From the NCBI GenBank assembly GCA_945881965.1, contig CAMCVS010000001.1, positions 415,402 through 479,401 of the forward strand: DNA of 64,000 bases. The letters run 5' to 3'. A model generated the notes under the pieces. The model ran no database searches. It saw only the letters and a program-made list of their open reading frames with translations, and was not told the origin of the DNA. Position 1 is the stretch's first letter; the number at the start of each line of letters is the position of its first letter. This document shows positions 23,009 through 58,756 of this stretch, one piece after another. The position numbers and the translations under genes are program-made. Source of the DNA: Paracoccus haematequi. Its GTDB lineage: Bacteria; Pseudomonadota; Alphaproteobacteria; Rhodobacterales; Rhodobacteraceae.

Positions 23009-23599
23009 GTGGCACAACACGCACATAACGCACGACGCATCACAGCGGGCGCTGCTGCGCTGGCGATGGTGTTGACAGCATTTACCGGAATGTCTGCGCA
23101 AGCGCAGGGCAATTTCTTTAACACACAGAACCAGCGGACCAATGAACGCTATGTGCCCACGATCTGGGTTGATCCGGATGGCTGCGAACATTGGGTGATG
23201 GATGACGGTGCCGAAGGGTTCATGTCGAACCACCTGACCCGTCAGGGTATTCCGGTCTGTAACCGCCAGAACGTCTGCGGCGTGTTGAACACGGACCAGT
23301 ATTTCGCCACCAACAGCTATCATCTGTCGCCCCATGGCAAACAGAACCTGGCGCAGTTCTTTCAGTCCAGCCCGGCGCGCGCGTTCGTCATCGCAGGCCA
23401 CACCGACAGCCGCGCGAGCGATGAATACAATATCCAACTCAGCTATAACCGCGCCAATGCGGTGGCTGCCGTTGCATCGTCTGTCGGGGCCAACGTGATC
23501 GACGTGCGCGGCTATGGCGAGCGGATTCCGAAGGTTGCGAACAACACGGCGCACGGCATGGCACAGAATCGCCGTGTCGAGATCATCTGCTTCCGCTGA
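23009..23599 (+). CDS. OmpA-like peptidoglycan-binding protein with N-terminal two-Cys module
   Basis: A 196-residue exported protein. I prefer GTG 23009, which gives a normal signal peptide (ITAGAAALAMVLTAFTGMSA, cleavage near AQA); ATG 22967 is an alternative with a long n-region. Residues about 52-84 form a small module WVDPDGCEHW...DDGAEG...PVC, with Cys59 and Cys84. The C-terminal OmpA domain (about 90-196) holds VIAGHTDSRASDEYNIQLSY and QNRRVEI, which contain the diaminopimelate-binding Asp and Arg. It probably tethers to peptidoglycan. The next gene encodes a lipoprotein with the same module. Confidence 0.85.
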   Translation: MAQHAHNARRITAGAAALAMVLTAFTGMSAQAQGNFFNTQNQRTNERYVPTIWVDPDGCEHWVMDDGAEGFMSNHLTRQGIPVCNRQNVCGVLNTDQYFATNSYHLSPHGKQNLAQFFQSSPARAFVIAGHTDSRASDEYNIQLSYNRANAVAAVASSVGANVIDVRGYGERIPKVANNTAHGMAQNRRVEIICFR

Positions 23600-23608
23600 G
23601 GACTGACC

Positions 23609-23905
23609 ATGCACAACATCATCCGTATTCTGGCGTTGTCCGGTCTGGCCTTTGTGGCAGCCTGCGATGACAAGCAAAACAAGACCGTGGACCGCGGCAT
23701 CGACAGCAAACACCTCAGCCAATTGGTGGCGGGTGTCTGGGTCGATCCGAATGGCTGCGACCACTGGATCATCGACGATGGCGTCGAAGGCTATCTGTCG
23801 ATGCGTCTGGACCCCTATGGCAAGCCGGTCTGTTCGGGCATCGCGCCGCCCAACACCGCCGTCGGTCCGTATAAAAAGGGCAGCCGGATCGGCGACCCGA
23901 TCTGA
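23609..23905 (+). CDS. Small lipoprotein with the same two-Cys module
   Basis: A 98-residue lipoprotein, lipobox FVAAC with lipidated Cys19. Residues 43-75 read WVDPNGCDHWIIDDGVEGYL...GKPVC, matching the upstream OmpA-like protein at most positions with identical Cys spacing (Cys50, Cys75). The remainder is short and polar (GPYKKGSRIGDPI). It starts 9 bases after the upstream stop, so the two are an operon. The pair suggests duplication of the module, with one copy anchored to peptidoglycan and one to a membrane. No known domain name. Confidence 0.75.
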   Translation: MHNIIRILALSGLAFVAACDDKQNKTVDRGIDSKHLSQLVAGVWVDPNGCDHWIIDDGVEGYLSMRLDPYGKPVCSGIAPPNTAVGPYKKGSRIGDPI

Positions 23906-24134: not shown

Positions 24135-25148
24135 TTGACCGCCACCACCCTGCCCCCGCCCACGGATCCCGCGCTGCTGACCGAAGCGCGCATCGAATTT
24201 CCCGACAACCGCCTGCTGATCGACCTTTGCGGGCAGTTCGACCGGAACCTTGCTGCGGTGGAACAGAAGCTGGGGGTGCAAATCCTGCGGCGCGGCAATC
24301 AACTGGCGGTGTTGGGCGAAGAGCGCCCGGTGTCCGAGGCGAAGGCGGTGCTGGAATCGCTGTATGACCGGCTCGAGGCGGGTCGTGCCCTGGAACAGGG
24401 CGATGTGGACCGGGAATTGCGCATGGGCGGATCGGAACGCGGCACGGGCATCCAACCCGGCGACCAGATCGAGATGTTCAAGGGCGGCCCGATCGAGATC
24501 AAGACCCGCCGCAAGATCGTCGAACCGCGCACCGAGGCGCAAAAAGCCTATGCGCAGAACCTGTTCAAGCATGAGCTGTGCTTTGGCATCGGGCCTGCGG
24601 GCACCGGAAAGACCTATCTGGCCGTGGCGGTCGGGGTGTCGATGTTCCTGACGGGCGAAGTCGAGAAGATCATCCTGTCGCGTCCGGCGGTCGAAGCCGG
24701 CGAAAGGCTGGGCTTTCTGCCCGGCGACATGAAAGAGAAAATCGACCCCTACATGCAGCCGCTCTATGACGCGCTGAACGATTGCCTGCCGGGCAAACAG
24801 GTCGCCAAGCTGATGGAAGAGAAAAAGATCGAAATCGCGCCGCTGGCCTTCATGCGCGGGCGGACGCTGTCCAGCGCCTATATCGTGCTGGACGAAGCGC
24901 AGAATGCCACGTCCATGCAGATGAAGATGTTCCTGACCCGGTTGGGTCAAGGCTCGCGCATGGTGATCACCGGCGACCGCACCCAGGTCGATCTGCCGCG
25001 CGGCGTGGCGTCCGGTCTGGCAGATGCGGAACGCCTGCTGAAGGGCATCCCCAAGATCAGCTTCAACTATTTCACGTCGAAAGACGTGGTGCGTCACCCG
25101 CTGGTCGCCGCCATCATCGAGGCCTACGAGGCGGAAGGCAGCGTATAA
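24135..25148 (+). CDS. phoH: PhoH-like ATPase
   Basis: A 337-residue PhoH-family P-loop ATPase (YbeZ type). The start is TTG 24135 because AAGGAG lies about 6 bases upstream; no ATG fits. A KH-like N-terminal region (FDRNLAAVEQKLGVQILRRG) precedes the ATPase with Walker A GPAGTGKTYLAVAVG and Walker B YIVLDEAQNATSMQMKM, then VITGDRTQVDLPRG. YbeZ partners YbeY in rRNA maturation, and ybeY follows 3 bases later. Confidence 0.95.
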   Translation: MTATTLPPPTDPALLTEARIEFPDNRLLIDLCGQFDRNLAAVEQKLGVQILRRGNQLAVLGEERPVSEAKAVLESLYDRLEAGRALEQGDVDRELRMGGSERGTGIQPGDQIEMFKGGPIEIKTRRKIVEPRTEAQKAYAQNLFKHELCFGIGPAGTGKTYLAVAVGVSMFLTGEVEKIILSRPAVEAGERLGFLPGDMKEKIDPYMQPLYDALNDCLPGKQVAKLMEEKKIEIAPLAFMRGRTLSSAYIVLDEAQNATSMQMKMFLTRLGQGSRMVITGDRTQVDLPRGVASGLADAERLLKGIPKISFNYFTSKDVVRHPLVAAIIEAYEAEGSV

Positions 25149-25151
25149 GCC

Positions 25152-25736
25152 ATGCCGCCCGTGCCGGAATTTGGGACCGCAGCGCTTGGCGATCAGGATG
25201 CGGCCGACGGCCTTGTCGAGACGGCGATCGAAGACCCGCGTTGGGATGGGCTTGACCTGACCGCGCTGGCAGACCGCGCCGCGCGCGCCACATTTGCGCA
25301 TCTGGATATGCCTACGGACGGTTTTACCCTGTGTCTGATGGGCTGCGACGATGCCCGCATCGCGGTGCTGAATGCCGAATTTCGTGGCAAGCCCACGCCC
25401 ACCAACGTGCTGTCATGGCCATCTGAGGATTTGGCCGATGACGCCGACGGTGCCCCCCCCGCCCGCCCGCTGCCCTGGGATGGCGATGATCCGTGGTCGC
25501 TGGGGGATATCGCGTTGGCCTATGACACCTGCGCGCGCGAAGCCGCCGAGGCGGGGCTTGTCATGGCGGATCATGTGACGCATCTGGTTGTTCACGGGCT
25601 GTTGCATCTGTTGGGCTATGACCATCAGCGTGACGCGGATGCCACCCTGATGGAAGGTTTGGAAACCGAGATACTTGGCAAGATGGGTCTGGCTGACCCA
25701 TACAGAGACGCGCAACACACGGCAGACGGCGCGTAA
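25152..25736 (+). CDS. ybeY: Endoribonuclease YbeY, rRNA maturation factor
   Basis: A 194-residue metal-dependent endoribonuclease that processes 16S rRNA 3' ends and takes part in ribosome quality control. The zinc motif HxxxHxxxxxH is seen as HGLLHLLGYDH (about residues 146-156). The conserved NVLSWPSED with the preceding FRGKPTPT is also present. An acidic, Pro-rich insert (DADGAPPARPLPWDGDD) separates these blocks. Operon with phoH and corC. Confidence 0.95.
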   Translation: MPPVPEFGTAALGDQDAADGLVETAIEDPRWDGLDLTALADRAARATFAHLDMPTDGFTLCLMGCDDARIAVLNAEFRGKPTPTNVLSWPSEDLADDADGAPPARPLPWDGDDPWSLGDIALAYDTCAREAAEAGLVMADHVTHLVVHGLLHLLGYDHQRDADATLMEGLETEILGKMGLADPYRDAQHTADGA

Positions 25737-25754
25737 CACAGACGGAAAGGGACA

Positions 25755-26678
25755 ATGGGCGACACCGTAGAAGGCTCGTCCGGGGCGGCGCAAGGCGCGC
25801 AACCGGACAGTATGTTACAAAGCGACACAAACGGCGATACGCAGGATACGCCACGAACCGGCATCCTGCGGCGCATTTTCGGGGCCTTTGGCGGGTCGGA
25901 ACCCGCCCCGCCCGCCACCACGGCGGAAACGCCGCGCACTCTTGGCCTTGGGGCGGTGCATGGCATGGTCAACCTGCGCCGGATGCGGGTCGACGACGTG
26001 GCGATCCCGAAATCCGATATCGTGGCGGTGCCGCTGACCATCACCAAGGACGAGCTGGTCGAGGTGTTCCGCGAATCCGGCATGACCCGCCTGCCGGTCT
26101 ACAAGGGCACGCTGGACAGCCCGCAGGGCATGATCCACCTCAAGGATTTCGCCCTGAAACACGGGTTCAACGGCACGGGCAGCCCGCGTTATCTGCTGAA
26201 ATCCATGCTGCGCCCGCTGCTCTATGTGCCCGCGTCGATGTCGATCGGCGTCCTGCTGCAAAAGATGCAGACGGAACGGCGGCACATGGCGCTGGTGATC
26301 GACGAATATGGCGGTGTGGACGGGTTGTTGACCATCGAGGATCTGATCGAACAGGTCATCGGTGAAATCGAAGACGAACATGACGAGGATGACGCAAGCT
26401 ATTGGACGGCGGAAAAGCCCGGACAATGGCTGGCGCTGGCCAAGACCCCGCTGGAAGATTTCGAAGAGGAAATCGGCCTTGACCTGACCGAACACGAAGA
26501 CGTGGACGGCGAGGAAATCGACACGCTGGGCGGGCTGGTCTTCATGCTGGCGGGGCGGATTCCCGCGCGCGGCGAGGTGGTGCAGCATCCGTCGGGGCCG
26601 GAATTCGAGGTGGTGGATGCCGACCCGCGCCGGATCAAACGCCTGCGGGTGCGGCTGACCGCGAAACGCGATGCCTGA
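25755..26678 (+). CDS. corC: CorC/HlyC-type CBS-domain protein
   Basis: A 307-residue soluble CBS-pair protein. The acidic N-terminal tail is followed by the CBS pair (MVNLRRMRVDDVAIPKSDIV, VPASMSIGVLLQKMQTERRH, VIDEYGGVDGLLTIEDLIEQ) and a C-terminal CorC/HlyC transporter-associated domain (EEIDTLGGLVFMLAGRIPAR). In E. coli CorC assists magnesium and cobalt efflux; the precise role here is inferred. In many alphaproteobacteria it sits between ybeY and lnt, as here, with an 8-base overlap into lnt. Confidence 0.92.
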   Translation: MGDTVEGSSGAAQGAQPDSMLQSDTNGDTQDTPRTGILRRIFGAFGGSEPAPPATTAETPRTLGLGAVHGMVNLRRMRVDDVAIPKSDIVAVPLTITKDELVEVFRESGMTRLPVYKGTLDSPQGMIHLKDFALKHGFNGTGSPRYLLKSMLRPLLYVPASMSIGVLLQKMQTERRHMALVIDEYGGVDGLLTIEDLIEQVIGEIEDEHDEDDASYWTAEKPGQWLALAKTPLEDFEEEIGLDLTEHEDVDGEEIDTLGGLVFMLAGRIPARGEVVQHPSGPEFEVVDADPRRIKRLRVRLTAKRDA

Positions 26679-28173
26679 AGCCGTCCCCGCGCTGCGCACA
26701 TGGCCCGCGCGCGGGCTAGCCTTTGGCGCGGGCGCGGTGGCGGCGCTGGGGCAGGCACCTTTGCTGTGGTCGCCTGCGATCATCCTGGGCCTTGCGGCGG
26801 CGATCTGGCTTTGGGCGTGCGCGGAAACGGTGCGGGGCGCGGCCTGGATCGGCTGGGCCTTTGGGGCAGGGCATTTCGCCGTGGCACTGGTCTGGATCGT
26901 CGAGCCGTTCCTGATCGAGCCGGACCGTCACGGCTGGATGGCCCCATTCGCGTTGATATTCTTGGCGGGCGGGTTGGCGTTGTTCTGGGCGCTGGCGTTT
27001 GGCGTGGCGCGGTGGCTGGCGCTGACGGGTGCGCGCGCTGCGCTGGCGCTGGTGGGGGCTTATGCCGCCGTGGAACTGCTGCGCGCCTATGTGTTCACCG
27101 GGTTTCCTTGGGCGATGCTGGTGCATGGCCTGATTGAGGGCCGCGCGGCGCAAAGCGCGGCGGTGATCGGCCCGCATGGCCTGACCTTGGGCCTTGTCCT
27201 GCTGGTGGCGGTTCCGGTGTTGCTGCGCCGCCCTGTGGGGCTGATCCTGCCGCTGGCGCTGGTGATCTGGCCGCTGTCGCCGCAGGGGGTGGCCCCTGCT
27301 CCCGATGCGCCGTTGATCCGGCTGGTGCAGCCCAACGCGACGCAGGCGTTGAAATGGGATCCGGAAATGGCCCGCGTGTTCTATCAGCGCCAGATCAGTT
27401 TTTCCGCCGCCGGAACCGCCGCGGGAACTGCGACAGGGGACGCGCGCCCTGCGCTTGTGGTCTGGCCGGAAACCGCGATCCCGGTCTGGTTGGACGATGC
27501 GGGCGATCTGTTGGCGCAGATCGGCAGCGCCGCCGCCGCCCCCGTGTTGCTGGGCATCCAACGCTATGCGGGCGAGAAAATCTATAATTCCGCCGTGCTG
27601 ATCGGCCCCGACGGTGCGCAGCGCGCGCTGTATGACAAGCATCATCTGGTGCCGTTCGGCGAATATGTTCCGTTCGGCAACCTGATGGCGCGCTTTGGCA
27701 TCTATGGTTTTGCTGCCAATGACGGGCAGGGCTTTTCGGCGGGCCCCGGTCCGGCGCTGATCGACCTTGGGCCGGGTTTGGGCCGCGCCCTGCCGCTGAT
27801 CTGCTATGAGGCGGTGTTCCCACAGGATGTGAACGGCGCGCCCGAACGGCCCAACCTTCTGATCGCGCTGACGAATGACGCCTGGTTCGGCGAGATTTCC
27901 GGCCCCTATCAGCATCTGGTGCAGGCCCGGTTCCGCGCCATCGAACAGGGCCTGCCGATGGTGCGCGTGGCCAATACCGGGGTGTCTGCGATGATCGACG
28001 CCGAGGGGCGGGTGACGGCAAGCGTGGCGCTGAATACTGCTGGCTGGGTGGATGCGCCGCTGCCGCCTGCGCGCGCGATCACGCCCTATGCCCGTTTTGG
28101 CGACGGGCCTGCGGCGATTGTGGCGCTTTTGCTGCTAGCGGGGCTGATTGTAACACGGCGGCGATTGACGTAA
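26671..28173 (+). CDS. lnt: Apolipoprotein N-acyltransferase
   Basis: A 500-residue inner-membrane enzyme that adds the third acyl chain to lipoproteins. About six N-terminal helices (residues 10-210) are followed by a nitrilase-fold periplasmic domain. The catalytic triad is visible: Glu in VVWPETAIPVW, Lys in YDKHHLVPFGEYVPFG, Cys in LPLICYEAVFPQD. A final hydrophobic segment ends the protein. The lipoproteins in this window are its expected substrates. The ATG overlaps the corC end (ATGCCTGA). Confidence 0.96.
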   Translation: MPEAVPALRTWPARGLAFGAGAVAALGQAPLLWSPAIILGLAAAIWLWACAETVRGAAWIGWAFGAGHFAVALVWIVEPFLIEPDRHGWMAPFALIFLAGGLALFWALAFGVARWLALTGARAALALVGAYAAVELLRAYVFTGFPWAMLVHGLIEGRAAQSAAVIGPHGLTLGLVLLVAVPVLLRRPVGLILPLALVIWPLSPQGVAPAPDAPLIRLVQPNATQALKWDPEMARVFYQRQISFSAAGTAAGTATGDARPALVVWPETAIPVWLDDAGDLLAQIGSAAAAPVLLGIQRYAGEKIYNSAVLIGPDGAQRALYDKHHLVPFGEYVPFGNLMARFGIYGFAANDGQGFSAGPGPALIDLGPGLGRALPLICYEAVFPQDVNGAPERPNLLIALTNDAWFGEISGPYQHLVQARFRAIEQGLPMVRVANTGVSAMIDAEGRVTASVALNTAGWVDAPLPPARAITPYARFGDGPAAIVALLLLAGLIVTRRRLT

Positions 28174-57085: not shown

Positions 57086-58756
57086 TTAGCGCCGGACGAA
57101 GGCGTCCGAAAACCCCGCCGCGCGCGCCCGCGCCATGGCGCTGTTGACTGCGGCATCCGACGTGAACGGCCCCGCCAGCACCACGGCCAGGGCCTGTCCG
57201 CCGCGTGTCAACCGCCCCTGCGCCACCGGCAATCCGATGTTGCGCAGCCGTGCCGACGCGGCGGCGGCGTTGCCTGCGCTGGCAAAGCTGCCAACCTGCA
57301 CATACATCGCCTGCCCGCGTTGCGGCTGCGGAGCGGAGGTGCTGACACGCGGCTGATGCGCCTGCTGTTGATAGGCGGGTTGCGCAGAAGGTTGGTCTGC
57401 GGCGATCTGTTGGCGCGACTGCGACGACACCACCACGACGCGCTGGCCCCTGGACGCGGCAGCCTGGGCGGCACGCTGTGCATCGAGGCTGACGAAGGGA
57501 TAGACAAGGTCCGGGTTGAACGCCGTCACATCGGCCCCGGTGCGAATATCCACAAGCCGCTGCGGCACGTCACGGGTCCAGCGCAGATACATCTGGGCGC
57601 GCCCGTCAAGGGTCTGATGCGCGCGCTGCGGGTTCAGGCGGTCATCCTCCCAGACGGTGCGATAGCCCTTGGGCGGACCTGTCAGATCGGCGGATTGCGC
57701 CTGCTGCGCAATGACATGGCGGGGGGCGACACGGGTCTGGCCCGTGATGGCGTAGGACGGTTCGGCATAGCTGGGGGCGGCATAGGTCTGCGCCTGCCGC
57801 TGCGGCGCGGCATAGACCGGGGCGCGCGGTGCCGCGTAGACAGGCGCGGAATAAGGAGGCGCGGCATAGGTCGGGGCTGCGATCTGCGTCCGGGGCGCAT
57901 AGGCCGCGCCATCGACCAATGGCTGGGTCTGCGGGCCACAGCGCACCCCGGCTCCGGGTTGCACATAGGCCTGACCGACCGCCGACAGGTTGCTACAGGC
58001 CGACGCACCGGTAATGGGTCCAGCCACCTGATAGGGCGCTGCAAGACGCGGGGCTGCAACGCGCGGGACGGCAATCTGCGGCGCAGGATATTGCGCCGCG
58101 CCATAGGTCTGCCCGCCATAGGGCTGCGCCGCAACACGCCGTGACGCCGGAACCACCACGCGTGGGGCCGGGGCGGGTTGTGTCACGATCTGGGGGGCCA
58201 TCGCGCGCGGCACGGTTCTGGGCACCGTTCTGGGAGCAACGGCTGCCACGCGCGGAGCCTGTTCGCGGGTCTGGACCTGCTGCGCGCGGGCGGGGGCCGC
58301 GACGCTTGGCACGACCACGTTGCGCGGTGCAGCGGTGGCAACCGTTGTGGCACCCGTTGCGGCACCGGGGGGGGCAATCGCTGCTTCGGTGGTGGCGGGG
58401 TTCACGTCACGCGCAGGCGGCAGCACGACCGGCGCAGGCCCGCGCGCAGGTGCGGCGGCGCGGGGGGCGGCACCGGTGGCGGCAACCTGCGTCGGCGCGG
58501 CCCCGCACAGCTGCTGGCGTGACCGCGACACGCGCGGCACCCAATTCACCGCCCCGTCAACGCCGGCGCGGATAAAGACGCAGCCCTTGCTGTCCACATA
58601 CTGCCGCCCGGTATAGGACGCAGGCGGGATTTCCGCCGGGCCATTGCCGATGGGCCCGGATTGCGCCCAGACGGGCGCAGCCTGCCATGACAAGGCGCTT
58701 GTCGCCAGCAGAACGGCCAGCGACAGCAATCGGATCGGTTTCAGCACCAGCAGCAT
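57086..58756 (-). CDS. SPOR-domain envelope protein with N-terminal two-Cys module
   Basis: A 556-residue exported protein. The start is ATG 58756 (a GTG 15 bases earlier lacks a ribosome-binding site), giving a signal peptide ([14 protein letters not shown], cut near VWA). Residues 53-84 form YVDSKGC...LCG with Cys59 and Cys84, the same spacing as in the OmpA-like protein. A long Ala/Pro/Val-rich linker follows, with repeated YAAP-type units (about 290-345). The C-terminal SPOR domain (about 480-556, [28 protein letters not shown]) binds denuded peptidoglycan at division sites. Confidence 0.85.

Follow-up and report, generated by a model that had tools for sequence, protein, structure and literature searches.

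The DNA analysed here, called the window throughout, is a stretch of 64,000 nucleotides from Paracoccus haematequi, a member of the Rhodobacteraceae. It encodes three exported proteins that carry near their N-terminus a two-cysteine module of the form VDxxGC-x24-C (Table 1). Two of them, an OmpA-like protein and a lipoprotein with little beyond the module, are encoded by neighbouring genes, the lipoprotein start lying 9 bases past the stop codon of the OmpA-like gene; the third, which ends in a SPOR domain, is encoded about 33 kb from this pair. In all three proteins VD is found about 21–26 residues past the presumed cleavage site, as read from the sequence. The occurrence of VDxxGC-x24-C in these three proteins was pointed out in an earlier note on this DNA, and its coordinates and residues were all confirmed.

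Table 1. Genes and domains that carry or accompany the two-cysteine module, in window positions.
Feature	Position	Strand	Description
OmpA-like exported protein	23009..23599	+	196 aa, GTG start; signal peptide, module, C-terminal OmpA-like domain
Module of OmpA-like protein	23150..23260	+	residues 48-84, Cys 59 and Cys 84, VDPDGC-x24-C
OmpA-like peptidoglycan-binding domain	23300..23572	+	residues 98-188 of OmpA-like protein
Module-only lipoprotein	23609..23905	+	98 aa; lipobox VAAC, Cys 19
Module of lipoprotein	23729..23833	+	residues 41-75, Cys 50 and Cys 75
SPOR-domain exported protein	57086..58756	-	556 aa; N-terminal module, low-complexity linker, C-terminal SPOR domain
Module of SPOR protein	58505..58639	-	residues 40-84, Cys 59 and Cys 84, VDSKGC-x24-C
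SPOR domain of SPOR protein	57089..57307	-	Pfam PF05036

When all open frames of at least 60 codons in the window were scanned (89,698 residues), VDxxGC-x24-C was matched by exactly these three. No match was obtained when residues were shuffled within frames (0/300), and a chance origin of the three-fold occurrence was rejected on this basis; as the motif was picked after the fact, the shuffles are a rarity check and give no clean p-value. Searches of the whole genome of the organism (3.2 Mb) revealed no further clear copy of the module. Weak matches of the OmpA/lipoprotein profile in this genome (L142–L144, E 0.05–0.6) were discarded as chance-like frames devoid of a signal peptide.

The partner domains are peptidoglycan related, as the earlier note had it: the OmpA-like protein matched PF00691 with 49.9 bits (Pfam cut-off 27.2) and the SPOR protein matched PF05036 with 42.5 bits (cut-off 21). 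We take the aspartate of GHTD and the arginine of LSxxRA in the OmpA-like domain to be the residues that bind diaminopimelate; both were invariant in 30/30 relatives. OmpA-like domains bind diaminopimelate via an Asp and an Arg, Asp271 and Arg286 in Acinetobacter (PMC5974059). No N-terminal membrane beta-barrel was found in the OmpA-like protein, whose 196 residues have an above-cut-off Pfam match at the C-terminus only, and the protein has no lipobox of its own. It resembles Pal and other OmpA-like proteins (PF00691, TIGR02802) in its C-terminal OmpA-like domain with conserved Asp and Arg, and differs from them in two respects: it has an additional N-terminal two-cysteine module, and the outer-membrane lipid anchor, which is on Pal itself, is here on a separate neighbouring protein. 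Its match to Pal (TIGR02802, 58.9 bits) did not reach the equivalog cut-off of 125.35, and that of YiaD was not reached either. Similarly, the SPOR protein shares with FtsN and other SPOR-domain proteins (PF05036) a C-terminal SPOR domain past a long linker, and differs from them by its N-terminal two-cysteine module; its score against FtsN (TIGR02223) was 17.2 bits, the equivalog cut-off of 107.65 not being reached. The target of SPOR domains is peptidoglycan from which the stem peptides have been removed, a form enriched at the septum (PMC6895207).

Cysteines outside the module were also observed. Cys 90 and Cys 194 of the OmpA-like protein (window 23276–23278 and 23588–23590) are an invariant pair that brackets the OmpA domain in 30/30 relatives, which suggests a second, putative disulfide. 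The linker of the SPOR protein contains a second pair as well, Cys 254 and Cys 273, in a C-x18-C that ends in VRC (window 57938–57997, minus strand); motifs of the type C-x10..30-[RK]C were present in 21/30 of its relatives.

The OmpA and lipoprotein genes are genetically linked as a pair. A module lipoprotein adjoins the OmpA gene in all 30 loci that were fetched from 34 OmpA matches (26 lipoproteins were recognised by the motif, and four deeper-branching ones by profile). The named loci are the best 80 of 556, with titles that designate Rhodobacteraceae genera or bins and, in two cases, Alphaproteobacteria only; both genes are present in 80/80 of them (77 by the motif and three by eye). A lipobox-like motif, searched as a loose pattern, precedes the lipoprotein module in 30/30 fetched loci and was found in 78/78 parsed lipoproteins (78 parsed of the best 80 of 556 loci). 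Only 3/110 OmpA proteins have such a motif, sited inside the signal region and in no case convincing. The genes flanking the pair in 63/63 full-length loci are, judging from motifs, presumably miaB and phoH, and a script found the order and strand miaB-ompA-lipoprotein-phoH in 59/60 loci, the exception (L262) being a frame-boundary artefact. Lipoprotein and OmpA distances, compared in 75/80 loci, are correlated beyond miaB and phoH (partial r 0.26 for the module and 0.43 for the domain, permutation p 0.001), and comparison correlations with miaB, phoH alone removed were 0.05 to 0.22; in these correlations, as in the co-occurrence described below, ancestry is corrected through miaB and phoH only, and adjacent genes can transfer jointly. 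In the window, the region downstream of the pair (24135–28173) contains genes resembling phoH, ybeY, a CBS-domain CorC-like gene and lnt (apolipoprotein N-acyltransferase), which are our assignments by sequence recognition. In another locus (L160, from G358), a large part of the OmpA domain signature is missing from the OmpA-type protein (no GHTD, no NRRV), while the module and the neighbouring lipoprotein are kept.

The SPOR gene has a neighbour of its own: a gene that we take, from a motif, to be upp lies directly upstream on the same strand in 57/58 loci (some genomes are twice in the set). In one genome (G433, locus L192), the neighbours match the SPOR locus of the window, with what we assume from sequence recognition to be adenosine-deaminase-like and upp genes. 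Three frames are found there: the first encodes a module-only protein of 75 aa with a lipoprotein signal (LPAM_1, 25.9 bits), and the second and third encode lipoproteins made of the module and a SPOR domain (17.2 bits, just below the cut-off of 21, and 52.2 bits, respectively). This order repeats the arrangement of the OmpA locus, a module-only lipoprotein beside a module-plus-wall-binder.

Relationships between modules were analysed with three profiles, constructed from 56 OmpA and lipoprotein modules (A1), from 30 SPOR modules (A2), and from SPOR-type and small proteins (A6, 41 rows, bridging row included). On sequence comparison, the OmpA and lipoprotein copies are homologous beyond doubt: they are about 50% identical and their alignment by hhalign gave 99.8, so the two adjacent genes said by the earlier note to have a module in common are clear paralogues in this respect. 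For the SPOR protein, which the same note had included, the outcome depended on the relatives used. Early comparisons with close SPOR modules gave hhalign values of 42.0 and 49.4, with one of the 30 SPOR sequences taken in a wrong frame, and clean rows gave 65.4 with a score of 23.8. Permutation of the SPOR columns (A2, n=300) gave a mean score of 9.5 and a maximum of 19.8, and when V, D, G, C and C were kept fixed the mean was 15.0 and the 95% point 24.0. As the real score is lower than this last value, the likeness among close relatives is mostly that of the five anchors, and the window and its close relatives alone make membership of the SPOR module only suggestive.

Membership became firm with divergent members. 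Following the weak A2 matches brought in divergent proteins of the SPOR type as well as small exported ones, and addition of 14 divergent SPOR-type rows gave an in-register hhalign value of 95.5 (score 38.0), equalled by 0/200 anchored permutations. The same comparison without the bridging row L192c gave 92.7 (score 32.0), again with 0/200 anchored permutations equal. Used on 61 genomes, A6 detected seven OmpA/lipoprotein modules at E values from 4e-4 to 0.02, with no other match in that range. Without the bridge it detected, among 20,563 frames and at E 0.01–1, 81 OmpA/lipoprotein modules of about 264 found by A1, together with four unrelated frames (classes were assigned from simple motifs). 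The reverse search was weak: A1 gave E=0.002 for the divergent SPOR lipoprotein from G433, the unrelated frames L164, L165 and L182 scored in the same band, and a typical SPOR module (L063) scored only 0.86. In an A1 search of 15 genomes, picked partly for weak matches, the matches at 3e-4 to 0.02 were mixed and included two frames that resemble divergent module lipoproteins (L163 and L180) and a SPOR lipoprotein (L181).

The low score among close relatives, just below the anchored 95% point, and the poor detection of SPOR modules by the OmpA/lipoprotein profile are what would be expected if the SPOR module were unrelated, its VDxxGC-x24-C being convergent and a common module existing only in the OmpA and lipoprotein genes. 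This is quite improbable in view of the anchored permutations, none of which matches the comparison that includes divergent members with the bridging row in or out, of the cross-detection of OmpA/lipoprotein modules by the SPOR-type profile, and of a predicted strand register that is alike in SPOR and lipoprotein modules (see below). A homologous module shared by the OmpA-like protein, the lipoprotein and the SPOR protein is thus very probable from these alignments, and the shared-module reading of the earlier note is supported.

Of 61 family genomes, 34 have the OmpA-like protein at E<=1e-20 and 39 have the SPOR module at E<=0.01. In a set of 198 family genomes, A1 and A2 matched 126 and 141 genomes, respectively, at E<=0.1. 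After removal of genomes with weak A1 matches (G024, G390, G405, G454 and G455) or weak A2 matches (G380, G414, G423 and G481), and with G353 and G366 counted as SPOR-type from the module alone, five of the 198 genomes had A1 only, 21 had A2 only and 56 had neither. A profile search had been proposed as a check in the earlier note, and its hits are not limited to the three window proteins: the module is present in most sampled family genomes and in further architectures. The OmpA/lipoprotein and SPOR kinds are found together in 116/198 family genomes (the Fisher p of 1e-25 ignores ancestry and was not used as a probability). Among 289 alphaproteobacterial genomes, A1 matched four and A2 five. 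All four A1 matches and three of the A2 matches are in the family of the window, and the two remaining A2 matches, both weak, were considered chance-like, one being a frame with stops (G162) and the other having no signal sequence that could be seen (G064). Convincing copies were seen only in Rhodobacteraceae among the 289 alphaproteobacteria sampled; these searches scored the best first-look candidates, 23–24 per genome in the set of 289 and 34–36 per genome in the set of 198, so that a genome without a match may still carry the module.

A variant of the module is carried by small exported proteins of the form PPxxFxGQ...GCxYSRAGRPGE...W...C, which are present in some family genomes (L145–L148, L152, L276 and L277) and were not found in the genome of the window with the A6 profile. 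Their comparison with SPOR-type modules gave 97.4, versus only 41.0 with OmpA/lipoprotein modules. L180 in G456 and L163 in G390 are lipoprotein-like frames whose sequences (DGCYWYRYDGPVETTMLPLRTRNGNPIC; DGCWFIVIEDGLSGVMRPLKDRNGKLVC) look like a divergent module; both are possible additional paralogues. L180 sits away from the module pair in G456, and no such pair was found in G390.

The structure prediction suggested in the earlier note gave strands at matching offsets in the lipoprotein and SPOR modules, although the alignments behind the two models have zero rows in common. The AlphaFold model of the SPOR module had a pLDDT of 94, and that of the lipoprotein a pLDDT of 73.6 overall, which is moderate confidence, and of 74–89 over the module. 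Counting from the V of VD, strands are predicted at -2 to 0, +6 to +12 and +15 to +20 in the SPOR module, and at -4 to 0, +6 to +10 and +17 to +20 in the lipoprotein module; both models have single bridge residues at +22 and +28, and Cys at +5 and +30. The module is, in these models, a small (about 40 residues) three-stranded beta unit with a conserved Cys pair. A Foldseek search with both models identified no solved fold at E<=0.001. A second look with VIA-align gave best Z values of 3.1 and 2.7, and the weak likeness of both models to vaccinia L5 (Z 2.0 and 2.7) was not trusted. For a module of this size, such a lack of fold matches is weak evidence either way. A sequence search of the PDB with two profiles gave best E values of only 1.3 and 1.1.

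In the OmpA family, four Cys columns account for 120/121 Cys, each being occupied in 30/30 proteins; both Cys of the lipoprotein module are kept in 26/26, and SPOR proteins have an even number of Cys in 30/30. Because the Cys are invariant and even-numbered, which fits the oxidising periplasm, the two of the module most probably form a disulfide after export. The earlier note described their spacing as exactly 24. This is correct for the three modules of the window, and 24 was also found in 77/77 OmpA and 80/80 lipoprotein modules caught by the motif in the best 80 of 556 loci (the motif missed three OmpA modules, which were read by eye). As a rule for the family it was rejected, since 25 residues separate the two Cys in the deeper-branching OmpA and lipoprotein genes, and the gap is shorter in some of the divergent members of the SPOR type. 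Across the 56 OmpA and lipoprotein modules nine columns are invariant, among them D12, D22 and E26; the acidic set is not retained in SPOR-type modules. The mean net charge is -4.6 for OmpA modules and -3.8 for lipoprotein modules, none being positive, and SPOR modules are neutral or basic in close members (+2.5) and mixed in divergent ones (+0.6).

The earlier note had proposed a new domain, and no Pfam or NCBIfam model reached its curated cut-off over the module, either in the window proteins or in the member scans. The nearest catalogued domain is DUF6440 (PF20037), a Pfam family of unknown function with sub-threshold likeness over the whole OmpA/lipoprotein module. In the lipoprotein of the window it matched residues 42–76 with 12.8 bits (E 0.11), compared with a cut-off of 26.5, and it matched 20/56 OmpA/lipoprotein modules at E<=10 (best E 0.0056); as these 56 are close relatives, the 20 matches are not independent ones. 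It matched 0/41 SPOR-type and small modules. DUF6440 may be a distant relative of the module. That the module is a branch of a catalogued domain, either DUF6440, whose match in the window's lipoprotein spans the full module, or one outside the two libraries scanned, is very improbable given the sub-threshold score, the non-independent matches and their absence from SPOR-type and small modules. In the two libraries scanned, Pfam and NCBIfam, the module is probably not a member of any catalogued domain.

Known lipoproteins were also compared. Omp10 (NCBIfam NF041251), a small alphaproteobacterial lipoprotein, matches weakly over the signal peptide and the start of the module; the score of the window's lipoprotein was 19.2 bits, the equivalog cut-off of 100 not being reached, and 2/26 mature lipoproteins were matched (best E 0.048). 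DalA (RSP_1200) of Rhodobacter sphaeroides is an outer-membrane lipoprotein of Rhodobacterales, about 18 kDa in size; it is reported to bind peptidoglycan and to co-precipitate with proteins of the divisome, and the gene downstream of it, RSP_1201, is predicted to encode an L,D-transpeptidase (PMC10470522). The window's lipoprotein differs from it, being about 10 kDa and encoded between the ompA-like gene and phoH; As a candidate for this lipoprotein, DalA was set aside on its size and neighbours. In vesicles of D. shibae, a SPOR protein (Dshi_0924) and OmpA-domain proteins are abundant (PMC7901474), a likeness to the module proteins by domain only. In the literature searched on Rhodobacterales SPOR, OmpA, Tol-Pal and outer-membrane lipoproteins, no description of the module was found.

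The best explanation, which we hold tentatively and rate somewhat below an even chance, is that the module is reused at the N-terminus of Rhodobacteraceae envelope proteins as a protein docking domain; that it is a docking domain of some kind comes very close to an even chance. The soluble OmpA-like protein would grip peptidoglycan through its OmpA domain, and the lipoprotein, which has little beyond the module on its lipid anchor, would offer the module at the membrane. Together they would be a two-piece unit tying the outer membrane to the wall, a 'split Pal'. The SPOR protein, presumed to bind the septal wall and endowed with a more basic version of the module, would probably dock to the same set. 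Docking is favoured because the lipoprotein has no evident task other than presenting the module, because the adjacency of the pair is strict, and because lipoprotein and OmpA distances remain correlated. The joint presence of both kinds of module in 116/198 family genomes and the G433 locus, where a module-only lipoprotein adjoins two module-plus-SPOR lipoproteins, also speak for it. Other observations weigh on the other side. The family genomes with neither kind (56/198) count against docking, as does G015, in which the OmpA protein has its own lipobox and the neighbouring lipoprotein is nevertheless retained. In G311, which has a module lipoprotein, the 3 kb fetched showed no OmpA-like gene, and a match of the SPOR type was not found; this counts against the OmpA-lipoprotein pair. 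Furthermore, since OmpA and lipoprotein modules are both acidic, a charge-driven contact between them is not favoured, and the natural contact might instead be that of an acidic with a basic module. The OmpA-lipoprotein tether in particular is a doubtful, if possible, form of the docking explanation.

The strongest competitor, itself unlikely, is that the module binds the wall or a ligand (peptidoglycan, a metal or a glycan), so that each protein would have an additional binding site and no protein partner would be involved. Its companion domains come from peptidoglycan-binding families, the invariant D12, D22 and E26 of OmpA and lipoprotein modules could belong to such a site, and binding the wall directly would still give a module-only lipoprotein a use; however, with the acidic set absent from SPOR-type modules, and close members neutral or basic, a ligand site common to all modules is not evident. 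It is more improbable still that the module is a Cys-closed structural cap or spacer, which protects the N-terminus and binds nothing, the OmpA and lipoprotein genes being a simple tandem duplication. The shortness of the module, the adjacency of the genes and their approximately 50% identical modules agree with this view, but a nearly module-only lipoprotein persists beside the OmpA gene in 30/30 loci and nine invariant columns over 56 modules are more than a spacer requires.

Docking could also take a more specific form, that of a Rhodobacteraceae-specific clamp in which acidic OmpA/lipoprotein modules and basic SPOR modules bind each other, an idea that we regard as improbable, marginally more so than the cap. 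If it were true, one interchangeable disulfide-closed plug would tie together the outer membrane, the side wall and the septal wall, and part of the work of Lpp, Pal and FtsN-type proteins would be done by module proteins.

Most Alphaproteobacteria, including R. sphaeroides, are without Lpp and other outer-membrane lipoproteins that hold the E. coli envelope together (PMC10470522), which raises the question of what replaces them. The small domain described here, present in most sampled genomes of the family, is common to a wall binder of the OmpA type, a lipoprotein with little beyond the module and a protein with a SPOR domain. This two-cysteine module is without a firm name, and it offers three concrete genes for experimental study of this question.
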